Source: Verrucomicrobiales bacterium (GTDB lineage: Bacteria; Verrucomicrobiota; Verrucomicrobiia; Limisphaerales; JAQGOY01). Taken from it: a stretch of 34,955 bases of DNA. Numbering within the stretch: the first letter of the stretch is position 1; each line of letters begins with the position of its first letter. This document shows positions 3,134-15,124 of this stretch, in pieces. The stretch spans positions 1-34,955 of the forward strand of contig JAQGOY010000196.1 in the NCBI GenBank assembly GCA_028293375.1, read 5' to 3'. Position numbers and translations under genes: made by a program. The notes beneath the pieces were generated by a model. The model did no database searches. It had not been told where the DNA came from and saw nothing but the letters and a program-made list of their open reading frames with translations.

Positions 3134-4126
3134 TTACTTTCCTCCCTGATAAATTTTGTCAAAGACGCCACCGTCATCGAAATGAGTCTTTTGGGCTTTT
3201 GTCCAACCTCCAAAGAGTTCATCGATGGTAAACAACTCGACCTTCGGAAAAATGCCAGCGTATTTCGCGGCTATGGTTTTATTGCGGGGACGGTAATAAT
3301 TCTTCGCGGCAATTTCCTGGCCGGCGTCTGAATAGAGAAACTCCAGATAGGCTTTCGCGACCGCTTCCGTTCCATGCTTCTTTGCGTTCTTATCCACAAC
3401 GGTTACGGGTGGCTCAGCCAGGATGCTGATGGAAGGGATGATGACTTCGACTTTTCCCTTTCCTGTTTCCTGTAGCGCCAGGAAGGCTTCGTTTTCCCAT
3501 GAGACGAGGACATCTCCCACATCGCGTTGAAGGAAGGTTGTTGTCGCTCCCCGTGCGCCGGAATCCAGGACAGGGACATTCTTGTAAAATTTGGAAAGGA
3601 ACTCGACGGCTTTTGCATCGGATCCGTATTTTTTCAGAGCAAATCCATAAGCAGCCAGGTGGTTCCAGCGAGCCCCGCCGGAGGTTTTAGGATTAGGTGT
3701 AATGATCGCCACGCCGGGTTTGACCAAATCATCCCAATCTTTGATGTGTTTTGGATTTCCTTTTCGAACAAGAAATATAATGGTGGAAGTATAGGGAGCA
3801 CTGTTATCAGGAAGACGTTTCTGCCAGTCGGAGGGAATCAGATTATTTTTGGCCAGAAGGTCCACGTCGTAAGCAAGGCCCAGAGTCGCCACGTCCGCTT
3901 CCAGTCCATCGCCGATGGCTCGAGCCTGCTTCCCCGACCCGCCGTGGGACTGCTTGATGGTAATTTTATCCCCGGTCTTTTTTTGATATTCGTCAATAAA
4001 GCTTTTGTTGATGGCCTGATAAAATTCTCTGGTGGGATCGTAGGAAACATTGAGCAATGAAAAGTCCTTTGCGAATGCGCCAGTGAGAGAAAGAAACAGT
4101 GAAAGGACGGCGAGTTTTTTCAGCAT
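3134..4126 (-). CDS. Sulfate-type ABC transporter periplasmic substrate-binding protein
   Basis: The 330-aa protein has a clean signal peptide ([19 protein letters not shown]) and then the sulfate/thiosulfate binding-protein fold. The segment [13 protein letters not shown] (59-71) and the family signature [17 protein letters not shown] (145-161) are both intact. The C-terminal [19 protein letters not shown] is also typical. It would bind sulfate or thiosulfate in the periplasm and deliver it to a CysTWA-type permease. No permease or ATPase gene is present in the window, so the partner must be encoded elsewhere. The ATG at 4126 gives a normal signal peptide; an in-frame TTG three codons upstream (4135) is possible but less likely. 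The upstream leader is long and structured (see 4161-4206). Sulfate and thiosulfate specificity cannot be separated by eye. Confidence 0.9.
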
Positions 4127-4160
4127 AACAGTCAAATCTTAGATTAAAGGGGCTGGTTTT

Positions 4161-4206
4161 GGAAGCTCCCTCCGGGTCGGCACCCACCGGCGCAGAGATT
4201 TCTTCC
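4161..4206 (-). promoter_or_regulatory. Structured 5' leader of the sulfate-binding protein gene
   Basis: The untranslated leader can fold into a nested hairpin. GGAAG (4161-4165) pairs with CTTCC (4202-4206), CTC (4166-4168) with GAG (4195-4197), and an inner stem GGGT/ACCC (4174-4177 with 4182-4185) closes a four-base loop. It lies 35 bases upstream of the start codon. Location before a sulfur-uptake gene suggests a regulatory leader. I do not recognise the conserved core of a known SAM or SAH riboswitch, so the regulatory role is inference. Confidence 0.35.
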
Positions 4207-4245
4207 TGTGAACTAACCGCTACGAGACAGAGCCTATGTCGAAAG

Positions 4246-4251
4246 ATTATA
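4246..4251 (-). promoter_or_regulatory. Candidate -10 element for the sulfate-binding protein gene
   Basis: A perfect TATAAT reads on the minus strand at 4251-4246, about 120 bases upstream of the start codon and just before the structured leader. The hexamer at the expected -35 distance is weak. A TTGACA (4258-4253) lies directly next to the TATAAT, too close to serve with it. The call therefore rests mainly on the -10 match and its position. Confidence 0.35.
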
Positions 4252-4306
4252 ATGTCAACTGTTTTACTGTAGATTAACTGCTTGTTACTTTTTTGGGCGA
4301 CGTTTC

Positions 4307-4335
4307 TTGACAACTATATCGGTAGTGGATATATC
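4307..4335 (+). promoter_or_regulatory. Promoter of the padR-like operon with an overlapping inverted repeat
   Basis: TTGACA at 4307-4312 is followed after 17 bases by TATATC at 4330-4335, a good sigma-70-type promoter 15 bases before the regulator's ATG. Across the spacer and -10 lies a perfect inverted repeat, TATATC (4315-4320), 7 bases, GATATA (4328-4333). PadR proteins commonly repress their own promoters at AT-rich dyads of this kind, so this is the likely autoregulatory operator. The short leader leaves little room for other control. Confidence 0.6.
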
Positions 4336-4349
4336 ATTAACCGTTATAT

Positions 4350-4721
4350 ATGACTGACCGTTCCATAGACCCGAATCAGAAATTGCCACTAACTCCCGCT
4401 GTTTTTCATATCCTGCTTGCATTGGCGAATGGAGAACTTCACGGCTACGCAATCATGCAGGAGGTGACGCAGTCGACTGGTGGAACGATCCGAATGGGCC
4501 CCGGAACTTTATACGGGACCATCAAAAAACTAGTGGCCGAGGAATGGATCGAGGAAGCAGGCGAAAGGGCGGTTTCACCTTCCGATGACGAGCGAAGACG
4601 TTATTATCGATTAACAGAATTCGGGGCTAAAGTTGTTAATGCGGAGGTTCGAAGATTATCGCAGGTATTACGAAGTGCACAAGGGAAGCGTTTGATTGTC
4701 CCACTGGAAGGAGGCGTTTAG
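4350..4721 (+). CDS. PadR-family transcriptional regulator
   Basis: The 123-aa protein is a compact PadR-family winged-helix regulator. The helix-turn-helix region is LTPAVFHILLALANGELHGY (residues 14-33), followed by the recognition segment and wing (MGPGTLYGTIKKLVAEEWIEE), then the typical YRLTEFG and a short C-terminal dimerisation helix. PadR proteins of this size in Acidobacteria and Verrucomicrobia usually repress an adjacent membrane-protein or efflux gene and themselves. Here the next gene begins inside its stop codon (TAGTG at 4719-4723), so the two are translationally coupled. A strong GGAAGGAGG (4706-4714) in the end of this gene serves the next one. The dyad over the promoter suggests autorepression; the inducer is unknown. 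Confidence 0.92.
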   Translation: MTDRSIDPNQKLPLTPAVFHILLALANGELHGYAIMQEVTQSTGGTIRMGPGTLYGTIKKLVAEEWIEEAGERAVSPSDDERRRYYRLTEFGAKVVNAEVRRLSQVLRSAQGKRLIVPLEGGV

Positions 4722-5680
4722 TGCCTGGGCCGCAACAGTCCTTTTCTGAAAGGGCTTACCGTAAACTATTGTTATTATATCCGACAGGATTTCGCAAACA
4801 ATACGGAGAACCCATGGCACTGGTATTTCGTGATCAGTATCGGCGGGCACAAGAAGTTAATGGGAATGCGGGCCTGCTTGCACTTTGGTTTCAGACCATC
4901 TGGGACCTGGCGTGCAGCTTTCCAGCCGAACAAAACGATGAATTAATGAAAAACATGAATATTGGACTGAAACTCGAAAAGTTGACTGTGGGAAGATTTT
5001 TCCTCATGGCTTTCCTGGCGATGATGATTTGTTTTGGAGTAAAGACAGGGATGGAGCCCAGGGCATATAGAGTTAGCGAGTTACTGTTAGTGGAGAACAA
5101 CTCGGCTCGTGCTGATACGTTCATCCAAGCCGGGCGTATCTCCACGGAACTTAAGCGGGTCGGCAACCTTGATGAGGTCATTCAACGCCTGGAGTTACAA
5201 AAGCGATTTAACGATAGCAAGCTGATCAGGACGCCTGTTTCGAAATTGGAGGCACGTTACTTGTTAAATAGCATGGTGGCCGTCCAACCTGAGCTTAACA
5301 TTTCGGTGCCTGGAATGCTTCGAAGAACATCGCAAGCCCCCAACCGTGAAAACGCAGTCATCCACCTGACGATCACTTATAAAGACCGGGAGATGGCCAG
5401 GCAAACTGCTGCCTGTTTTGGCGAGTTGCTGGTCGAGAAATTTCGCTCAGAATCAAGTTCGATCCAAGATTCACCTGGGGCACCGCCAAGTTTGGTGGGT
5501 ATGAACCCGCAAATTAAGGTTTTGATTCTGGACGCGAACTGTCCAGAGAAAACACACCCGATCGCGTATTTGCTTGCTCGCACCATTACGCTCGGAGGAA
5601 TGAGGAGCCTGGGGATTGGTCTAGCGCTGGGGTTGGTTTTTTGGTGCGGTCAGCGGATGAGCTCATCCCGGCAAACGTGA
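4721..5680 (+). CDS. Hybrid membrane protein: ADOP-like N-terminus plus Wzz-like segment
   Basis: The 319-aa product starts at GTG 4721, one base into the padR stop and behind an excellent ribosome binding site. Residues ~10-75 (RKLLLLYPTGFRKQYGEPM..., then LWFQTIWDLACSFPAE) resemble the cytoplasmic leader found on ADOP-type ABC permeases of Acidobacteria. The FtsX/MacB permease that normally follows is absent. Instead there is one TM helix (~88-108), a ~180-residue presumably periplasmic part with helical segments and the sequence AVIHLTITYKDREMARQTAACFGELLVEKF, and a second TM helix (~287-308). That two-TM arrangement resembles Wzz/GumC chain-length regulators, which set polysaccharide length. 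The Wzz link is inference from topology and weak local similarity. The gene ends 1 base before a strong terminator, so the operon has only two genes. Confidence 0.65.
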   Translation: MPGPQQSFSERAYRKLLLLYPTGFRKQYGEPMALVFRDQYRRAQEVNGNAGLLALWFQTIWDLACSFPAEQNDELMKNMNIGLKLEKLTVGRFFLMAFLAMMICFGVKTGMEPRAYRVSELLLVENNSARADTFIQAGRISTELKRVGNLDEVIQRLELQKRFNDSKLIRTPVSKLEARYLLNSMVAVQPELNISVPGMLRRTSQAPNRENAVIHLTITYKDREMARQTAACFGELLVEKFRSESSSIQDSPGAPPSLVGMNPQIKVLILDANCPEKTHPIAYLLARTITLGGMRSLGIGLALGLVFWCGQRMSSSRQT

Positions 5681-5681
5681 A

Positions 5682-5721
5682 AAAGTCCACCCCTGTGACA
5701 AGGGTGGACTTTGCTGTTTTT
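5682..5721. terminator. Bidirectional intrinsic terminator
   Basis: AAAGTCCACCC (5682-5692) pairs perfectly with GGGTGGACTTT (5702-5712) around a short loop. T-rich tracts follow on both strands: GCTGTTTTT on the plus side, TTTTTC on the minus side. It closes the padR operon and, 21 bases beyond the stop of the minus-strand gene at 5742, probably serves that gene as well. Confidence 0.85.
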
Positions 5722-5741
5722 AGAATCGCCGTTGAGGTGGC

Positions 5742-6935
5742 TTACCTGTCTCGATCAATATTTTTATTGAGGGCAATGCCGGAAGCGCGCTTGGCAATTT
5801 TTCGGCTGGTAGTGATTTTCGTGACCGTGCCTGTTTTGAGATATTGAGTGCGAACTTTGTCGAGGATGCTTTCCCGTTGATCGTAAAGGCGCTTCAATTT
5901 GCGAGGTTTCACGCGACTCAGGCAATAAGCGGTAAGCAGTGGCAGGGATATTGTTGAGTCCACATAAGCCACCACGCAATCCGGCAACGAGTCTGGATCT
6001 ACTTTCCCCCAACTGACAGCTTCAGCGGGGGTGGCGCCACTCAAGCCACCGGTGTCGGGTCGGGCATCGGTGCATTGCAGGAAATAGTCGTGTCCTTTTT
6101 CCTGGATGCCCATCACTTCCTGGATTTGCGGCTCGGTTTGCAGCATGAAGTTCTTAGGCGAGCCGCCACCGAGGATGAAAACGGACGATTTATGCCCGGA
6201 TGATTTTGCTTCGTAAACGATCCCTGCGGTCTGGTTCACATCCCGATTCACATCCATGAGTAGTTTGGAATCGCGCATGGCCATGGCGGCGACATTCATG
6301 CCGATGGAACTATCCCCTGGACTACTGGTGAAGATGGGAATTCCGCATTCATAGGCCGTGGCGAGGACGGAACTGTCCTTAAGTCCCAGCTTCCTGCCCC
6401 GTTGCGAAACGTATTTTCCGAGGAGATAATGAAATTCGTCAGTGCCCATCGTTTTCTGGAATTCCGGCCCCTGGATGACTTCGCGAACAAAGGCATCGGT
6501 GTCGAGGAGGACATGGTAGTCAAAAAGAATATCGTAAATGCGGATGACCCCATCTTTATGAAGCACAATATCGTCGAGGAAAGGAGATCCCGAAAAGAGC
6601 TGCATATCCAGGCCGTAGTGGAGGTCGTGGTAAAGATTTGCGCCGGTGGAGACGATCCAATCGATGAATCCAGCCTTCATGAGAGGAATGAGGCACGATT
6701 TGCCAAGACCGGCAGGAGTGAGAGCCCCTGTGAGACTCATGCCTATAAATCCGTCGTTCGGAAGCATTTTCTCGGTCAGGAGCTTGGCTGCTTCCCGGAT
6801 GCGACCGCCGTTATAGGCGAGGAAAGACTGGTCGATCAAATCGGCAGCCGAAACGTTTTTACCGATCCCAAATGGATTCAGGCGGGGATAGGCTGCAAAT
6901 TTTTTAGACGGATTTGAGGATTTACTCATGGGCAT
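5742..6935 (-). CDS. Deoxyhypusine synthase-like enzyme (possible homospermidine synthase)
   Basis: The 397-aa protein matches the deoxyhypusine synthase family along its length. It shows the NAD-site motifs [25 protein letters not shown] and [16 protein letters not shown], the lysine loop GGGSPKN (K261, equivalent to the residue that carries the butylimine intermediate), and [15 protein letters not shown]. In archaea and eukaryotes this enzyme modifies eIF5A with spermidine. Bacteria lack eIF5A, and several bacterial relatives make homospermidine or act on other acceptors, so a polyamine-synthetic role is more likely. No other polyamine gene is in the window. The frame extends to a TTG at 6965, but the ATG at 6935 (or 6929) is preferred because the family homology begins after it. 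It shares a bidirectional terminator with the padR operon. Confidence 0.88.
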
Positions 6936-7097
6936 CACTTTTTGAAAATTTCGTTTTAAAGGCAATGACCAAATTTCCGTGTCCAGATAACGATTGACTA
7001 GGGAGAGAGTGGCGTGAATGTTTAGCGAAATCCGAAAGATGAGTTGGCGGAGTCGATTTTCGGAAGTTAAGGACGCGGTGGGCTATTTTAGACAATT

Positions 7098-8846
7098 ATG
7101 AAAATCCGGATGGCAATCAGCGGTATTCTTTTGGGGCTTCTCATTCTTCCCCTTTCACTCTATGCGCAGCAAGTGCCGGTGGTGGAGAAGCATCTTTCCA
7201 ACGGGATGAAACTTCTTTTGTTGCAAAGAAAAGATGAACCGACGGTGTCGGGCGGGTTTGTGGCGCATGTAGGGAGTTCCAACGAGCGGGAAGGAATCAC
7301 CGGGATAGCTCACTTGTTTGAACACATGATGTTCAAAGGAACGCCGACGATTGGCACGAAGGATTACAAAAAGGACCTGCAAATCATCCAGGAACAGGAA
7401 AAGGTCCGGGACGAAATGCGGGAGGAGGAGAAAAAAACTCGCGATGCTTATCGCAAGGGGTTGATAGAAGATCCAGCCAAGTTCGAAAACCAGACCGATA
7501 CATGGCGTGAACTGGAGAAGAAATTCAAGGACCTGATAGCCCAGCAGCGCGAAGTGCAGGTCAAGAACGAGTTCGACAAAATTTATACCTCGAATGGCGG
7601 CTCGGGGATGAATGCTTACACCAGCCAGGACATGACTGCCTACTTTATCACGGTTCCTGCGAACAAGCTCGAATTGTGGATGTGGATGGAATCCGGCCGT
7701 TTGTTCCAGCCCGTGTTTCGTGAATTCTACGCGGAACGTGATGTCGTATTCGAGGAACGCCGGATGAGAACCGATTCCACTCCCCTCGGTAAATTTGCAG
7801 AACAATTTGAAGCCTTGTTTTGGGAGTCGCACCCCTACCACTGGCCTGTGATTGGATGGCCATCGGATATCCCCGCCATATCAAAAGCGCAGGCGGACGA
7901 ATTTTATGGAATCTATTACGCTCCGCAAAACATTACCTTGGTACTGGTAGGGAATTTTGATCCAGAGCAGGCAACGACAATGGCTGAAAAATACTTTGGA
8001 AGAATCCCCAAGGGAAAGAAAGAGGCGCCAGACGTGGTAACATTGGAAGTCGGGCAGATGGCAGAGAAACGGATGTATGCAGAAGCGGAAACCAATCCCC
8101 AGGTGGACATCAACTGGCACACGGTAGGTTTTGGCCACAAAGACTCTTATACTCTGGGCGTTTTGGCTCAAATCCTAAGCACCCGCACGGGGCGACTGTA
8201 CAAAGGCATGGTTTTGGGCTCGAAAGTTTCGACCGAAACATGGGCACAGCAAGAATCGATGAAATGGTCAGGCTTTTTCAACATGGGAGGGGAGGCAAGC
8301 GAAGGAAAGACTCCTGAAGAGGTGGAGCAAGCCATTTACGCTGAGCTGGAGAAATTGAAAAAATCGGATGTTCCGAGCGAAGAATTGCAGAAGGTTAAAA
8401 ACAACTTCGCGGCCAACGAATATCGCAAGCTTGGTTCCAACAACCCAATTCTCATGCAGTTGTTGCATTATGATGGCCTTGGCAATTGGAAGGAAATCAA
8501 CGAAGCCAACAAAAAATATCAGGAAGTAACAGCGTCGGATATCAAAGCTGCTGCAAACAAATACTTTACGAAAGAGAACAGAACGGTGGGGATCTATACA
8601 CGCAAGGGCGTGGTGGCCGGAAAGGGTGAGGCAGATAATGGACCCGCAGGGTTAAACAGCCAGCAAAAGCAGAATTTGAAACAATTGAATGAGCAACTTG
8701 CCAAAGAAACAGACACCAAACAAATGAAGACCATGCTCGAAAGAATGGAAAGCGAGGCAGGAAAAGTTCCACCTGATCAAAAGGCGTTCATGGAAGCGGT
8801 CAAAGCTGTGATCGAAGCTAGAATTTCAACACTGGAGAAGAAATAA
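7098..8846 (+). CDS. Secreted M16-family zinc peptidase (catalytic partner)
   Basis: The 582-aa protein has a signal peptide (residues 1-24, ending LYAQQ) and two M16 peptidase halves. The inverted zinc motif HLFEH is at 72-76, with the downstream glutamate in VFEERR near 219-220, so the active site looks complete. Between them is a long charged helical insertion (about residues 88-158, rich in Glu, Lys and Arg) that many short M16 proteins lack. The second half begins near ISKAQADEFYGIYYAPQNITLVLVGNF and ends in a Lys/Glu-rich tail. Such peptidases cleave peptides in the periplasm, usually as a dimer with an inactive homologue. The gene for that partner starts one base after this stop (8848), so the pair is cotranscribed and probably forms the complex. 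Confidence 0.92.
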   Translation: MKIRMAISGILLGLLILPLSLYAQQVPVVEKHLSNGMKLLLLQRKDEPTVSGGFVAHVGSSNEREGITGIAHLFEHMMFKGTPTIGTKDYKKDLQIIQEQEKVRDEMREEEKKTRDAYRKGLIEDPAKFENQTDTWRELEKKFKDLIAQQREVQVKNEFDKIYTSNGGSGMNAYTSQDMTAYFITVPANKLELWMWMESGRLFQPVFREFYAERDVVFEERRMRTDSTPLGKFAEQFEALFWESHPYHWPVIGWPSDIPAISKAQADEFYGIYYAPQNITLVLVGNFDPEQATTMAEKYFGRIPKGKKEAPDVVTLEVGQMAEKRMYAEAETNPQVDINWHTVGFGHKDSYTLGVLAQILSTRTGRLYKGMVLGSKVSTETWAQQESMKWSGFFNMGGEASEGKTPEEVEQAIYAELEKLKKSDVPSEELQKVKNNFAANEYRKLGSNNPILMQLLHYDGLGNWKEINEANKKYQEVTASDIKAAANKYFTKENRTVGIYTRKGVVAGKGEADNGPAGLNSQQKQNLKQLNEQLAKETDTKQMKTMLERMESEAGKVPPDQKAFMEAVKAVIEARISTLEKK

Positions 8847-8847
8847 G

Positions 8848-10347
8848 ATGAACAACCGATTATCGCTTCCCCTGGCGGTCGCCCTGCTGGTCAACTTCTC
8901 GCCTGTTCTGCAGGCGGCGGACACTGGAATTCCTGCCCGTCCAGAGGAACTGAAATACCCTGCCCTTAAATACGAGGTGCCGAACCAGGCTGACTATCGT
9001 GTCACGCTAAAATCGGGTCCCGTTGCTTATCTCGTTCCTGACAAGGAAAGACCTCTGGTCAACATTTCGATCCTTGTTCGCACCGGGGACTACCTTGTGC
9101 CAGTTGGCAAGGAAGGGCTGGCTCAAATTACAGGTTATTTGCTCGCGCGCGGGGGGACAAAATCCAAGACAGCTGAAGAAATGGAAGAGAGACTGGCTTT
9201 TCTGGCTGCACATTTGAACTCCGGCGTCGGCGAAAATCAAGGTTCCGTCAGTTTGGAACTTTTATCCAAGGACGTGGATGAAGGAGTTGGCATTTTAAAG
9301 GAGGTCCTGACCGCGCCCCGGTTTCAGGATGATAAAATTGCACTTTACAAGGACCAGACTCTGCAGGTGATGAAACAAAGGAATGATGATTCGTCCGATA
9401 TTGAAGGCCGCGAGAAAGAATTCCTGGCCTACGGCGAAAACTTTTGGGCGAACCGGCAGACGACCGCTGCTTCACTCGACTCCATCAGCAAAGTCGATAT
9501 CGAGCAGTTTCATAAGAAATGGTTTCATCCCGCAAACTTCATTGTATCTGTGAACGGAGATTTTGACCGCGAAGCGATGACTCAAAAACTGGAGAAACTA
9601 TTTTCCGACTGGCCGTTTCAGGGGGAGAAACCAGGCCCCATTCCAACCGACACCCAATTTGCAAAACCAGGAGTCTATGTGGTGGACAAGGAAGTGAACC
9701 AGGGGCGAGTCTCCATCATGTTGCCCGGAATCAAGAGGGATAATCCCGATTTCTTTCCGATCATCATCATGAATGATGTGCTGGGTGGGGGCGGATTTAC
9801 CTCCCATATCATGAATCGAGTCCGAAGTGACGAGGGGTTGGCCTACTCTGCGGGATCAAGTTTTCCCGGAGGAATCTATTATCCATTGACCTTCACAGCG
9901 GGGTTTCAATCGAAGTCGAGAACGGTTGCCTACGCTGTTTCCATTGTGCTGGACGAGATGAAAAAGATGGGCTCAACAACACCAGACAACGAGGAATTGA
10001 GCACAAGCAAGAATGGAATCATCGACAGGTTTCCAAGAAATTTCGCCACCAAAGGTCAAATTGCAGCCACTTTTGCCCAGGACGAATATACCGGGAGGTA
10101 TGCCCAAAATCCGGAATTTTGGAAAAATTATCGTAAGAATGTTGAAGCAGTATCCACGGAAGATGTTCAGCGGGTGGCAAAGAAATATTTAACCGAGGAC
10201 AATCTGGCTATACTCATCGTCGGCGACAAAAAGGAAATTTTGGCCGGCCACCCCAATTACAAGGCGTCCCTAAAAGAAATAGCAAAGGACAAGATCGTGG
10301 ATGTCCCGCTGAGAGATCCTTTGACGATGAAACCAATCACGAAATAA
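8848..10347 (+). CDS. Secreted M16-family protein lacking the zinc motif (non-catalytic partner)
   Basis: The 499-aa protein has a signal peptide (ending near VLQAADT) and the M16 fold. Where HxxEH should stand, the sequence reads GLAQITGYLLARGGT, so there are no zinc ligands and no catalytic glutamate. The C-terminal half keeps the substrate-side motif MNRVRSDEGLAYSAG, which in M16B dimers supplies Arg and Tyr to the partner's active site. This is the usual division of labour in alpha/beta processing peptidases and in bacterial M16B pairs. Spacing to the catalytic gene is one base, implying cotranscription and roughly equal expression. No strong terminator was found after it. Confidence 0.9.
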   Translation: MNNRLSLPLAVALLVNFSPVLQAADTGIPARPEELKYPALKYEVPNQADYRVTLKSGPVAYLVPDKERPLVNISILVRTGDYLVPVGKEGLAQITGYLLARGGTKSKTAEEMEERLAFLAAHLNSGVGENQGSVSLELLSKDVDEGVGILKEVLTAPRFQDDKIALYKDQTLQVMKQRNDDSSDIEGREKEFLAYGENFWANRQTTAASLDSISKVDIEQFHKKWFHPANFIVSVNGDFDREAMTQKLEKLFSDWPFQGEKPGPIPTDTQFAKPGVYVVDKEVNQGRVSIMLPGIKRDNPDFFPIIIMNDVLGGGGFTSHIMNRVRSDEGLAYSAGSSFPGGIYYPLTFTAGFQSKSRTVAYAVSIVLDEMKKMGSTTPDNEELSTSKNGIIDRFPRNFATKGQIAATFAQDEYTGRYAQNPEFWKNYRKNVEAVSTEDVQRVAKKYLTEDNLAILIVGDKKEILAGHPNYKASLKEIAKDKIVDVPLRDPLTMKPITK

Positions 10348-10476: not shown

Positions 10477-12741
10477 ATGTCTCCTGGAAAAGCTAGTCGA
10501 AACGGCGCCACGGTTTTTCTGTGGATCGTATGCACGATTGCGCAGATAACGTCGGCAGCTGACGTAACGAACGCTCTACTTAACGGTCGGGAGACAGCTA
10601 AAATGGTGGAGCGACTGGAACAGGTGCATCAAAACGTCGATGCTGCATCAACCATCTTTGAATCGGCGAGGCGAGTGCCGTTTTTTCGCGAAAAATACAA
10701 GGCAGCGGTCAAACCTCGAGACAAATTTGCCACCGGTTCGGCATACGGGCTGGAACTGCTAAACAATGGGCAATCATTGGAAGCCATCGAACAATTTGAG
10801 GCGCTCGAGCAGTTGGCAACCACGTCAAAAACATCGGCAGATCCGAAATCGCTGGAACAGCTGCGATTCTATCTAGCCCTCGCTCATTTTCGTTTGGGAG
10901 AGCAGCAAAATTGCCTTTCCAACCACAATGCCGATTCGTGCCTTTTGCCCATTCGCGGCGCCGGCTTTCATATCAATCCCGCCGGATCGCGTAAATCGAT
11001 CGAAATCCTGACCAACCTCCTAAACCTGGATCCCGACAATTTATCGGCTCGCTGGATATTAAACGTGGCAAGCATGACGGTGGGAGATTACCCGGAAAAA
11101 GTTCCAGCCAAATGGTTAATCGACCCGAAAGTTTTCGAGTCACAATATTCTCTTCCGCGTTTCACGGATGTGGCGGCTGGAATAGGACTGGGCGGAATGA
11201 CCCTTGCAGGTGGTGTTGTGGCCGATGATTTCGACAACGACGGTTTCCTGGATTTGCTGATATCCGAATGGTCAACCCATGGACAGCTGCATTTTTATCA
11301 TAATAACGGCGATGGAACGTTTACAGACCGAACAAAGGAGGCAGGGCTCATCGGTCTCTACGGAGGCCTGAACATGGTGCAGGCGGACTATAACAACGAC
11401 GGGCTGGTGGATGTCTTTATTTTGCGCGGGGCCTGGCGCCGGGAAGATGGCAAACATCCCAATTCGCTGCTGAAAAACAAAGGAAACGGAACATTTGAGG
11501 ATGTGACTGAATCGGCTGGGTTGTTAAGTTTTCACCCCACGCAAACAGCGGTTTGGCTGGATTTTAACAATGATGGATTGATCGATCTGTTTATAGGGAA
11601 TGAATCGGGTCCAGGAGTGCATCCCTGCGAACTGTATCGAAACAATGGAGATGGGACGTTTACGGAGTGCGCCAGGGAAAATGGAGTGGATGCCGTGGGT
11701 TTTGTCAAAGGAGTGGGAAGTGCAGATTATAATGGGGATGGACGTCCAGACCTCTATCTTTCCATCCTGAACGGCAACAACATATTATTTAGAAACGATG
11801 GGGCTGCTTCTGGTGGGAAGGAAAAAACAGGTCGCTGGAAGTTTACCAACGTGGCGAAAGAAGCAGGAGTCATTGAGCCGTTGAATAGCTTTCCGACGTG
11901 GTTTTTTGATTACGATAACGATGGATGGCCGGACCTCATGGTCAGTGGCTACCATGTGGTTCAAGGGGTAGGAGACGTTGCTGCCGATTACCTGGGGTTG
12001 CCGCACGAGGCAGAGCGGGCGCGGTTATTCCACAACAATAAAGATGGCACGTTCAAGGATGTCACCAAGGAGATGGGGCTGTATAAGGTGATTCATGCCA
12101 TGGGGGCTAATTTCGGTGATTTAGACAACGACGGCTACCCCGATTTTTATTTTGGAACGGGCGATCCGGCGTTATCCATGGTTATTCCCAACCGCATGTT
12201 TCGAAACGATGGTGGAACTAATTTCCAGGAGGTGACGACGGCGGGAGGATTCGGTCATTTACAAAAAGGCCACGCGGTGGCTTTTGCCGATCTTGATAAT
12301 GACGGCGACCAGGACGTGTTTATCGTGGTGGGAGGGGCCGTGAGCGGCGATACGTTTACCGACGCATTGTTTGAAAACCCAGGCAACACGAATGGCTGGA
12401 TCTATTTACAATTGGAAGGGAAGCAAAGCAACCGCTCGGCGATAGGAGCAAAGATCAAACTAAGCCTCGAGGATGATGGGAAAAAACGAGAGATTTATCA
12501 TACCATTGGAAGCGGCGGAAGTTTTGGAGCCAATCCGTTGCGTGCAGAAATCGGGATCGGTATGGCCTCGACAGTGGACATAGAAATTACATGGCCGGCG
12601 AGTGGCATAAAACAACAGTTTCTGGGTGTGGAAACGCGACACCTTTACCAGGTCAAAGAAGACAGTGACAAAATAGTGCTGACGCCCATGAAGTCCTTCA
12701 CCTTTAAAAAGGGGATGGCCGGCCACGTTCATCATCATTGA
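10477..12741 (+). CDS. Exported TPR / FG-GAP (VCBS) / UnbV-ASPIC repeat protein (CRTAC1-like)
   Basis: The 754-aa protein has an N-terminal hydrophobic export signal (TVFLWIVCTIAQITSA). A helical TPR-like region follows (about 70-200), with LNLDPDNLSARWILNVASM as one repeat. The core has seven FG-GAP/VCBS units, each with a calcium-type loop: DFDNDGFLD, DYNNDGLVD, DFNNDGLID, DYNGDGRPD, DYDNDGWPD, DLDNDGYPD and DLDNDGDQD. Seven loops suggest a seven-bladed propeller. The C-terminal part (about 640-735) is the UnbV/ASPIC domain, recognisable by SAIGAKIKLSL and IEITWPASGIKQQF. The family is abundant in Planctomycetes, Verrucomicrobia and Acidobacteria and is thought to act outside the cytoplasm; the ligand is unknown. 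The extreme C-terminus, GHVHHH, is a natural His cluster that could bind metal. Confidence 0.9.
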   Translation: MSPGKASRNGATVFLWIVCTIAQITSAADVTNALLNGRETAKMVERLEQVHQNVDAASTIFESARRVPFFREKYKAAVKPRDKFATGSAYGLELLNNGQSLEAIEQFEALEQLATTSKTSADPKSLEQLRFYLALAHFRLGEQQNCLSNHNADSCLLPIRGAGFHINPAGSRKSIEILTNLLNLDPDNLSARWILNVASMTVGDYPEKVPAKWLIDPKVFESQYSLPRFTDVAAGIGLGGMTLAGGVVADDFDNDGFLDLLISEWSTHGQLHFYHNNGDGTFTDRTKEAGLIGLYGGLNMVQADYNNDGLVDVFILRGAWRREDGKHPNSLLKNKGNGTFEDVTESAGLLSFHPTQTAVWLDFNNDGLIDLFIGNESGPGVHPCELYRNNGDGTFTECARENGVDAVGFVKGVGSADYNGDGRPDLYLSILNGNNILFRNDGAASGGKEKTGRWKFTNVAKEAGVIEPLNSFPTWFFDYDNDGWPDLMVSGYHVVQGVGDVAADYLGLPHEAERARLFHNNKDGTFKDVTKEMGLYKVIHAMGANFGDLDNDGYPDFYFGTGDPALSMVIPNRMFRNDGGTNFQEVTTAGGFGHLQKGHAVAFADLDNDGDQDVFIVVGGAVSGDTFTDALFENPGNTNGWIYLQLEGKQSNRSAIGAKIKLSLEDDGKKREIYHTIGSGGSFGANPLRAEIGIGMASTVDIEITWPASGIKQQFLGVETRHLYQVKEDSDKIVLTPMKSFTFKKGMAGHVHHH

Positions 12742-12794: not shown

Positions 12795-13448
12795 GTGACA
12801 TCCGACCAAACATTGGCTGATTACTATGCCCGCCGGGCTGAGGAATACGAGTCCATCTATGCGAAGCCTGAACGGCAGGTGGAACTCGAGAAATTGCGAA
12901 AGCATCTTCGATCCCGGTTTGCAGGAGAAAAAGTTTTGGAAGTGGCCTGTGGTACCGGGTATTGGACGGAGGTTATTTCACAATCTGCAAAGTCGGTGGT
13001 AGCGTTGGATATCAATGACGAGGTTCTGGAGGTGGCACGGCGAAAAAGTTTTTCCGATGTCAAACCGCATTTTGAAATAGCAGATGCTTACAGGCTGCCA
13101 AAAAGCAGAGGAGAATTTACTGGAGGGCTGAGCGCATTTTGGTGGTCGCACGTGCCCAAGGCCCGATTGAATCAATTCCTCGCAGGATTCCATGAAAGCG
13201 TTGGTTCGTGCTCTAAAATTACTTTTGTCGACAATCGCTATGTGGAAGGAAGCAGCACAGTTATCTCGAGAATCGACGCCTCGGGAGACACCTTCCAGAT
13301 GAGAAAGTTGAAAGACGGGTCACTGCACGAAGTGCTAAAAAACTTCCCGACGCGTGAGGAATTGATTAATGCGGTATCGGCTGATGCGGTTGAGATATCG
13401 GTAAATTTGCTGGAATATTATTGGTTACTCGAATACCGATTGAAATAA
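12795..13448 (+). CDS. Class I SAM-dependent methyltransferase
   Basis: The 217-aa protein is a small Rossmann methyltransferase. Motif I is VLEVACGTGYWTEV (47-60), and the acidic residue that binds the SAM ribose is D72 in VVALDIN. Motif II/III is near PHFEIADAYRLP, and the segment FTGGLSAFWWSHVPKARLNQFL takes the place of motif IV. The N-terminal YYARRAEEYESIY is typical of the Methyltransf_25/11 group. The substrate is unknown. It starts at GTG 12795 with an AGGATGATGAT upstream, and an ATG start giving the same N-terminus is not available. It lies 53 bases after the UnbV protein in the same direction and could be cotranscribed. Its stop is convergent with and almost touching the next minus-strand gene. 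Confidence 0.85.
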   Translation: MTSDQTLADYYARRAEEYESIYAKPERQVELEKLRKHLRSRFAGEKVLEVACGTGYWTEVISQSAKSVVALDINDEVLEVARRKSFSDVKPHFEIADAYRLPKSRGEFTGGLSAFWWSHVPKARLNQFLAGFHESVGSCSKITFVDNRYVEGSSTVISRIDASGDTFQMRKLKDGSLHEVLKNFPTREELINAVSADAVEISVNLLEYYWLLEYRLK

Positions 13449-13449
13449 T

Positions 13450-14556
13450 CTACTTTGGAGTTTTTAGAACCGCGCCTACGAATTCCGCCCATTTCCCCTC
13501 TGGCTCCCAAACTCTGTTCATCAGTTCCTTCGCTTTGTCAGGAGAGCAAAGCCCATTTCGGCGGTGATAGAGATACATGAATGCGGACACACGCATATTG
13601 GCTGCGCAATGAATGAATGTGCGTTTGCCTTCCACGCTTTGGAGGATGCTTTCAAAGAGATAATAATCCCTGGGATTGGGCTCGCCGAACTGAACTGGAA
13701 TGTGGAAATAGGCCATGCCGTGCCGGGTTACGAGTTCACCTTCGTTGGGAATGGCATTGTCTGAATTTGGTAATGCCAGGTTAATTACCACTTCGACCTG
13801 GTCATGAGCCAGTGCTGAAAAATGTTCCGCACCGGGCATCCCGCCCGTTAGATGACGGTCACTGATCTGCACAAAATTCCTAATGCTGGAGATTGTCTTC
13901 CGCAGTGTAATTTCAGATGGAAAGAGGCCAGCAAGAAATTCGACGAGCTCTGTTTTAGAGTTTGATTCCAGTATTGGTTCGCCAGGTACACAATAACCGA
14001 AGCCCGGACCAAATGCTTTTCCATTGACGACGCAGGCGTCGGTTCCTGCCGTTTCGATTTGGTTCCTTGCCCTGGCCAGAGCCTCGTTGCGGCTTCCCGA
14101 AAGCTCATACTTCCACCCGACAATCATCGCCGACGGGAACATTGGGCGGAGGAGGGGAAGCACCTTCAGTGAGGGTTCGAGTTCAAGAATGATACTGCCC
14201 GCATTTGTTGGAATTTTTTCTGATTTAACCGATTGACCAGCTTCATTATTGATCGATTTTACTTTGTAGTCGCAAAGTGCCGCCACGTGAAAAATGGCGC
14301 TGATATGGTTCTCCTTGGCTGCCTTTTTAAAAAGTTCAAGAAGATCATCATTCGTATCGAACGTTTGGACATCGACGCCCCCCTGCGGATGCGGCCAGGT
14401 TGCGCCGCTTCCTTTATAACAAATTACTTCGAGGTTTCGTGAGGCCAATCTCTCGGCCAAAAGTACTCCGAGCTGGCCGGTCGACATATTAGTCAGTCGC
14501 CGGACATCATCAATTCGCTCAAAGCCGGGGCCGCAGGTGACGATGACTTTTTTCAT
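13450..14556 (-). CDS. Fusion of a CoaB-like (DFP) domain with a DUF442-type phosphatase-like domain
   Basis: The 368-aa protein has two recognisable halves. Residues 1-212 match the DNA/pantothenate-metabolism flavoprotein C-terminal domain, i.e. phosphopantothenoylcysteine synthetase (CoaB). The signs are VTCGPGFERIDDVRRLTNMSTGQ, HVAALCDYKV, a lysine segment SEKIP, and GWKYE...NQIETAGTDACVVN. Residues ~222-368 look like the tyrosine-phosphatase superfamily, DUF442 branch: ISDRHLTGGMPG near the start and the loop HCAANMR, with C317-x4-R322. The usual CoaC half is missing. I do not know this combination as a standard CoA enzyme. The DFP half may have kept ligand binding while the phosphatase half acts on a phosphorylated product, but that is speculation. 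A GGAGGG precedes the ATG at 14556. The flavodoxin-like gene ends 7 bases upstream, so both are one operon. Confidence 0.8.
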   Translation of the reverse strand: MKKVIVTCGPGFERIDDVRRLTNMSTGQLGVLLAERLASRNLEVICYKGSGATWPHPQGGVDVQTFDTNDDLLELFKKAAKENHISAIFHVAALCDYKVKSINNEAGQSVKSEKIPTNAGSIILELEPSLKVLPLLRPMFPSAMIVGWKYELSGSRNEALARARNQIETAGTDACVVNGKAFGPGFGYCVPGEPILESNSKTELVEFLAGLFPSEITLRKTISSIRNFVQISDRHLTGGMPGAEHFSALAHDQVEVVINLALPNSDNAIPNEGELVTRHGMAYFHIPVQFGEPNPRDYYLFESILQSVEGKRTFIHCAANMRVSAFMYLYHRRNGLCSPDKAKELMNRVWEPEGKWAEFVGAVLKTPK

Positions 14557-14563
14557 CAATTGT

Positions 14564-15124
14564 TTACCCTCCAGGTTTCATCCGGGTAGACATTTTGTTG
14601 GAGGGATGCTCTTCCTTTCGACCATCGACGTAAACCGCTGTCCATTCCGCCAGGCGTCTCCCTAAAATTCGGCACGCTTCCTGGACCTCCTCAGCGCGCG
14701 GCTCTTTTGCCGCTACCGCTCCATAATGAAGCGTGGTCATTTTCGAGGCATAATCCGTCACTCCAAAAACCAGAAAACCAAAATTAATGAGAACTGTCAA
14801 AATGGACTGACAGGCCAGCTCCATCCCGCCGCCCCAGCCCCCGGCGGAACTAAAGGCGCAGGCGATCTTGCCGTCCACCTGCATCCAGTGTGGTCCCATG
14901 GTTTCGTCCCAAAATCGTTTCATTTTCCATGAAAGAAGTCCCATGTTCGTGGGGCTGCCTACCGCAATCCCATCGCACCAAATGACATCACTGGCGGCTG
15001 CTTCTTCGAGTGATTTGCATCTGACCTCGGTGTTGGAAATCAAAGCGGCTCCCTCCGCAACATGGCGTGCCATGTTGGCGACATTACCGGTTTTGGAGTC
15101 ATACAGAACAAGAACCCTGCTCAT
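14564..15124 (-). CDS. Flavodoxin-like FMN protein (WrbA/NAD(P)H-quinone reductase type)
   Basis: The 186-aa protein is a flavodoxin fold. The phosphate loop is LYDSKTGNVANMA at the N-terminus. SPTNMGLLSWKMKRFWD and SSAGGWGGGMELACQS match the FMN-binding loops of the WrbA/flavodoxin_5 group, and the length is normal. It probably carries FMN and either transfers electrons or reduces quinones. The frame continues upstream to 15322, but that extension has no family similarity. The ATG at 15124 follows GGCAAGG at a suitable distance. It is the first gene of a two-gene unit with the CoaB-phosphatase fusion, with a gap of seven bases. The partner being a DFP-like domain, from a family that normally includes an FMN decarboxylase, makes the pairing worth noting. 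Confidence 0.87.
   Translation of the reverse strand: MSRVLVLYDSKTGNVANMARHVAEGAALISNTEVRCKSLEEAAASDVIWCDGIAVGSPTNMGLLSWKMKRFWDETMGPHWMQVDGKIACAFSSAGGWGGGMELACQSILTVLINFGFLVFGVTDYASKMTTLHYGAVAAKEPRAEEVQEACRILGRRLAEWTAVYVDGRKEEHPSNKMSTRMKPGG

Follow-up and report, generated by a model that had tools for sequence, protein, structure and literature searches.

The window analysed here, a 34,955-nucleotide stretch of DNA from a Verrucomicrobiales bacterium, contains an open reading frame in which a phosphopantothenate-cysteine ligase (CoaB) domain is joined to a DUF442 domain (Table 1). The explanation we favour, with moderate confidence, is that this gene encodes an ordinary monofunctional CoaB to which a lineage-specific DUF442 domain has been appended, the latter being rhodanese-like rather than a phosphatase. 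CoaB is a nucleotide-activated ligase that couples 4'-phosphopantothenate with cysteine. In the proposed scenario, a formerly stand-alone DUF442 gene would have been appended to a CoaB gene, with the stop codon of one gene and the start codon of the other lost; the CoaB half would still make phosphopantothenoylcysteine and would pass it to a CoaC from another gene, presumably missing from the incomplete assembly, while the tether might be neutral, or might place sulfane-sulfur handling beside an enzyme of cysteine and pantetheine thiols. Each half is an ordinary known part, and the fusion is a small curiosity that implies no new pathway.

Table 1. Features of the fusion gene and its immediate surroundings in the window.
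Feature	Position	Strand	Basis
CoaB (phosphopantothenate-cysteine ligase, DFP) domain, residues 1 to ~212	13921..14556	-	PF04127, PDB CoaB matches, AF2/Foldseek
DUF442 / Blh-type rhodanese- or PTP-like domain, residues ~221-368, with C317-A-A-N-M-R322	13453..13896	-	phmmer to 3gxg, AF2/Foldseek, Blh model
Stop codon of the fusion	13450..13452	-	ORF listing
Junction of ~8 residues (PSEITLRK)	13897..13920	-	DUF442 half without its own start codon
Ribosome-binding region (GGAGG) and 7-base gap before the fusion ATG	14557..14580	-	
Flavodoxin / WrbA-like gene directly upstream of the fusion	14564..15124	-	Flavodoxin_1, NAD(P)H:quinone oxidoreductase model

The fusion is real in the source assembly, where it lies on one contig of one metagenome-assembled genome (MAG) that is 75.6% complete. 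The frame (13450-14559, minus strand) encodes 369 amino acids from a TTG codon or 368 from the next ATG (14556), and this ATG is the likely translation start, to judge from the GGAGG Shine-Dalgarno sequence close upstream, which sits within the tail of the flavodoxin gene. A methyltransferase gene (12795-13448, plus strand) is convergent with the fusion, with one base between its end and the fusion stop. Composition is alike in the two halves (GC3 of 0.51 and 0.53), and at each of the three codon positions the GC content differs little between them. Stand-alone relatives of the DUF442 half begin, in our alignment, a few residues ahead of a common IRNF-like motif; at that place the fusion has no ATG, GTG or TTG in any frame, the nearest TTG and GTG being codons 228-229, inside the domain, and the GTG at codon 229 is the only in-frame alternative start near the junction. 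Because no start codon is found where the stand-alone homologues start, the DUF442 half is expected to be made as part of the fusion.

The fusion is lineage-specific and unique among the genomes searched. A search for the domain pair, suggested in the preliminary description, found it in 0 of 319 other genomes of the order, in 0 of 387 other genomes drawn from the phylum, on no plasmid, and, in a narrow search, at none of the genome contig loci matched by peptide patterns. Wherever relatives have both genes, the CoaB and DUF442 genes lie on different contigs. A second DUF442 fusion was found in another genome (G028:C27, L114:4562-6115), where DUF442 (residues 131-278) and, behind it, a GNAT acetyltransferase domain (residues 314-452) share one frame, suggesting that DUF442 is a promiscuous fusion partner. 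These observations, and the single occurrence of the CoaB fusion among 320 genomes of the order, are what would be expected if unrelated genes had been joined by chance and the halves worked independently, an explanation that is compatible with our reading of the halves and to which we give slightly less than an even chance of being correct. Weighing against strict neutrality, the halves are intact, in frame and typical in codon use, and all clade-invariant residues are kept, from which it appears that selection at least tolerates the tether.

The C-terminal half is not the tail of an ordinary CoaB. Residues 221-344 match the Shewanella structures PDB 3gxg/3gxh, a "putative phosphatase (DUF442)", at E 1.1e-21 (phmmer), and AlphaFold and Foldseek agree with this assignment: an AlphaFold2 model of the DUF442 half built with 15 family members reached pLDDT 95, and Foldseek with this model returned 3gxh first (E 1.7e-14, TM 0.84), followed by archaeal and human PTP-fold phosphatases. 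A full-length AlphaFold2 model resolved the CoaB half only, the DUF442 half being mostly at pLDDT 34-59. Curated models fall below their cut-offs on this half (Pfam PF04273, DUF442/BLH_phosphatase, 13 versus 26 bits; TIGR01244, 13 versus 86; NF040641, 25 versus 625), and the DUF442 assignment is based on homologues and on 3gxg/3gxh, which match in both sequence and fold. The phosphatase-like loop reported previously (C317-x4-R322) is present, and the 15 members share NLA..S..A..E, a PVxFxxP stretch and HCxxNxRVSxF. Strong stand-alone relatives were found in 12 of 145 other genomes of the order (~8%). Others come from a gammaproteobacterial MAG (44% identity) and from plasmids of cyanobacteria and Thiothrix, the plasmid copies being annotated as "protein tyrosine phosphatase family protein". 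Inspection by eye revealed no obvious conserved neighbour of the stand-alone genes; at two loci from one family of the order (L120 and L121, ~4072-6364), the stand-alone DUF442 gene begins, by eye, beside a YggS/PLP-homeostasis-like gene. The DFP tree gave no sign of a phylogenetic tie between DUF442 and the CoaB clade of the window, and most DUF442-bearing genomes placed in that tree carry the other CoaB clade.

Both sulfur and phosphate chemistry have precedents among domains with such a cysteine loop. The DUF442 domains of Cupriavidus SQR (loop CRTGTR; PMC8533005) and of Xylella Blh, which has a rhodanese active site (PMC5823870), are proven sulfurtransferases, and a six-residue Cys loop ending in Arg is common to these characterised domains and to the DUF442 half (CAANMR). 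The same CRTGTR loop, C(X)4R, is found in Neisseria NMA1982, a proven phosphatase that hydrolyses phosphate esters by the PTP mechanism with an Asp as general acid; its loop Gly is 100% conserved among its homologues (PMC10716126). For the C(X)4R loop, the sulfurtransferase DUF442 domains are as good a fit as the phosphatases, or a better one. All 15 DUF442 members match the Blh sulfur-transferase/dioxygenase model and 14 of the 15 match the TIGR01244 sulfur transferase model, with scores under the cut-offs wherever these were given; the Blh match of the DUF442 half itself is far under the curated cut-off (25 versus 625 bits), which counts against a sulfurtransferase. The loop Gly of PTPs is replaced by Asn in all 15 members, and the general-acid Asp, which belongs to IPVDW in 3gxg and to PDF in archaeal PTPs, is replaced by Q in the window and by N, K, V or S in its nearest relatives, an Asp being found at this position only in 3gxg and more distant DUF442 members. 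Since both the loop Gly and the general-acid Asp are missing, we lean toward a persulfide or sulfurtransferase-like role over a phosphatase, and infer, more weakly, that the DUF442 half may use Cys317 to carry a persulfide and so act on small thiols in the manner of a rhodanese.

A small-molecule or protein phosphatase acting on a phosphate of the CoA pathway, for example 4'-phosphopantothenate or a damaged intermediate, with the fusion setting CoA flux, is in our judgement fairly unlikely. It would agree with the PTP fold, with the rank of PTP-fold phosphatases directly after 3gxh, with the description of 3gxg as phosphate-bound (PMC4409338), with the activity of NMA1982, and with a Glu, invariant in the DUF442 family, that may correspond to the Arg-orienting E-loop Glu (NMA1982 E53). 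It is opposed by the Gln and Asn at the general-acid and P-loop Gly positions, the first of these positions being unconserved in the nearest relatives, and by the distribution of strong DUF442 matches, which are restricted to those 12 of 145 order genomes and do not track with CoaB. The domain reading of the preliminary description was right, and its active site is as consistent with sulfur transfer as it is with a phosphatase.

A domain acting on sulfane sulfur (persulfide) or on phosphate might also regulate or modify the phosphopantothenoylcysteine step and so link reactive sulfur to CoA supply. We regard this as unlikely, and a neutral fusion as at least as likely as any coupling of sulfur or phosphate chemistry to CoA synthesis. 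A coupled fusion would be the first CoaB known to us that has its own cysteine-persulfide or phosphatase module, and would give a clue to the target of the widespread HCxxNxRVSAF branch of DUF442.

The assignment of the N-terminal half agrees with the preliminary description, which had placed a DFP/CoaB domain in residues 1-212. Residues 2-179 match Pfam DFP (PF04127, E 4e-24, 85.8 bits against a cut-off of 22), and this half matches the solved CoaB proteins PDB 5int, 2gk4 and 4qji by sequence; an AlphaFold2 model built with 63 CoaB-type sequences reached pLDDT ~97 for residues 1-210 and returned CoaB structures in Foldseek with E values down to 3e-18. The cut-offs of the NCBIfam CoaB equivalogs are missed (TIGR02114, 55.7 versus 217; TIGR00521, 67.7 versus 219.7), as they are by the stand-alone relatives. 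The 63-protein alignment, which includes the window so that its residues are kept by definition, has 20 invariant columns (T7, G9, D16, R19, N23, G27, G30, V44, L72, A93, D96, K114, L126, K131, G147, W148, K149, E151, N178, G179). Among these, R19, N23, D96 and K114 align with R207, N211, D281 and the first Lys of K-X-K-K in Mycobacterium smegmatis (numbering from PMC7794376), and the active-site Arg and Asn, the metal-binding Asp and the triphosphate Lys are all present. The full K-X-K-K motif is absent from the CoaB half, which reads K-I-P-T; the clade replaces the rest of the motif by K-x-x-x-R, and the window is without that Arg too (N118). The motif is conserved widely in bacteria "with few exceptions" (PMC7794376), so its loss is not decisive. 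Modelling of the fold and inspection of active-site residues, which had been proposed at the outset, thus bore out a PTP-like fold in one half and the four catalytic positions in the other, but not a complete K-X-K-K.

The CoaB half is the sole DFP protein in its own assembly; CoaE is encoded at another site of that genome, so the source bacterium presumably makes CoA. Because the active-site and clade-invariant residues are kept and no second DFP protein is present, the simplest reading of the sequence is that this half is the cell's CoaB. In a tree of 71 stand-alone DFP proteins, two old groups were resolved, and the window fell, on a long terminal branch (0.84), in the group that includes 0.9-Mb genomes. 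It also departs from its own clade, judged from the relatives alone, at two positions that are at least 97% conserved (P14R, G41N) and at one that is 95% conserved (R118N). Given this long branch and these substitutions, a weakened or altered CoaB activity is possible. That the half has lost or changed its function altogether, making the protein a new enzyme of another pathway, is improbable: the long branch and the changes at G41, P14 and R118, the clade Arg that replaces part of K-X-K-K, would suit such a shift, but they are set against the retention of all 20 clade-invariant columns in an alignment that includes the window, the status of the half as the only DFP protein, and the presence of CoaE with presumed CoA synthesis. 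Very improbable is an artefact in which a false indel from assembly or sequencing joined two adjacent genes, an idea invited by the single MAG contig and by a TGA at codon 214 of an alternative frame, roughly where the CoaB of relatives ends, but weakened by the about one-in-two expectation of a stop within 14 codons of a given alternative frame and by the scarcity of start codons around the expected DUF442 start.

A more secure result than any coupling of the halves is that an entire bacterial order appears, from its gene content, to keep CoaB and CoaC as separate, unlinked genes, whereas most bacteria have a bifunctional CoaBC (PMC7794376). The statement in the preliminary description that CoaB is normally fused to CoaC therefore stands for most bacteria and fails for the order of the source. 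The CoaB half has its closest named relatives in Verrucomicrobia, one of which carries the label subdivision 3, and a match to the fusion protein is encoded in 223 of 245 order genomes, nearly always as a DFP protein that matches residues 3 to ~210 only, at 36-56% identity. A single PF04127 protein was counted in 40 of 44 genomes checked, with two in G112, G240, G230 and G068. At least two PF02441 matches in short separate frames were present in 91 of 95 other genomes of at least 92% completeness, and at least two separate matches also in every complete chromosome checked elsewhere in the class. These two flavoproteins are probably UbiX-like and CoaC-like; in two relatives checked, the profiles TIGR02113 and TIGR00521 marked the second as CoaC-like, with E values of 1e-55 to 1e-57 and scores under the curated cut-offs. 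In single-contig genomes the CoaB gene and the second PF02441 gene lie tens to hundreds of kb apart, as in G097, with CoaB at C1:2524798 and the second PF02441 gene at C1:2164082. DFP occurs together with two unlinked PF02441 proteins in complete or near-complete genomes, those of 0.9 Mb among them. A stand-alone CoaB is kept in two complete genomes of only 0.9 Mb, which argues for CoaB being essential. Two old clades of stand-alone CoaB occur in the order, and a few genomes have both.

Pfam searches found no PF02441 CoaC domain in the fusion frame, and neither a canonical coaBC nor a CoaC was found in the source genome (75.6% complete). Its sole PF02441 protein looks like UbiX and lies just before a UbiA-like prenyltransferase gene. 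The missing CoaC is attributed to incompleteness of the assembly and is weak evidence of absence. The preliminary description had also recommended looking for a normal coaBC elsewhere in the genome; since relatives are likewise without one, its absence is no sign of novelty, and because the order keeps CoaB and CoaC apart, having no CoaC in the protein or near its gene is normal for the clade.

The flavodoxin gene ends 7 bases from the fusion ATG (stop codon 14564-14566), as reported previously, and the two genes are probably co-transcribed in the window. Its product is WrbA/flavodoxin-like (Flavodoxin_1, E 2e-7; NAD(P)H:quinone oxidoreductase model, E 2e-19). Copies with 71-81% identity occur in 20 of 115 other order genomes, none with CoaB or DUF442 within ~1.5 kb, and no flavodoxin was found near 20 CoaB loci or 13 DUF442 loci of relatives, in fetched stretches mostly extending several kb to each side; the adjacency is local to the source lineage. 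Many flavodoxin-bearing genomes also hold two PF02441 proteins, so the flavodoxin is no replacement for CoaC. A role for it as CoaC substitute or conserved partner was rejected, given the second PF02441 protein and the unconserved adjacency. The modified pantothenate-type pathway coupling flavoprotein and phosphatase steps that had been proposed is not supported: CoaB and CoaC are separate across the order, CoaE is present in the source genome, the flavodoxin is not a conserved neighbour and the general acid is missing. As a separate observation, the flavodoxin is much more conserved than CoaB and scattered over about one-sixth of order genomes, and its distribution looks patchy or transferred.

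Among known systems, the monofunctional CoaB of Streptococcus pneumoniae (2gk4) is similar in being a stand-alone DFP protein with a separate CoaC, and in fold and catalytic residues; the protein of the window differs in its appended DUF442 domain, its low score with the curated streptococcal model (56 bits against a cut-off of 217) and the reduction of K-X-K-K to K-I-P-T. Separate genes for PPCS and PPCDC are also found in Mycoplasma iowae (PMC8721197). The Shewanella structures 3gxg/3gxh and the "protein tyrosine phosphatase family protein" entries from NCBI (for example on Pseudanabaena and Acaryochloris plasmids) belong to the same family as the DUF442 half, with 33-41% identity and the HCxxNxR loop (HCLANYRASAF in 3gxg), but these are single-domain proteins, whereas the window has a fusion to CoaB, and the IPVDW/F loop has lost its Asp in the subgroup nearest to the window. 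Blh (DUF442-ETHE1) and the Cupriavidus SQR likewise carry a DUF442 module with a six-residue Cys loop ending in Arg on an enzyme of thiols or persulfides; in the window the partner is CoaB instead of a persulfide dioxygenase or SQR, the loop is CAANMR and not CRTGTR, and sulfur transfer is putative. The NADH-dependent persulfide reductase Npsr, a flavoenzyme that uses CoA and ends in a rhodanese domain (PMC7969121), resembles the fusion, by analogy only, in having a C-terminal sulfur-carrying domain on a CoA-thiol protein; the folds are unrelated, and Npsr uses bound CoA for sulfur shuttling, whereas the product of CoaB is a precursor of CoA.

Elsewhere in the window, a gene of the deoxyhypusine synthase family (5742-6965; PF01916, E 9e-67) was found in this bacterial genome, and two consecutive M16-family peptidase genes (7098-10347) are followed by a gene for a 754-amino-acid protein (10477-12741) in which FG-GAP-like repeats were recognised by eye.
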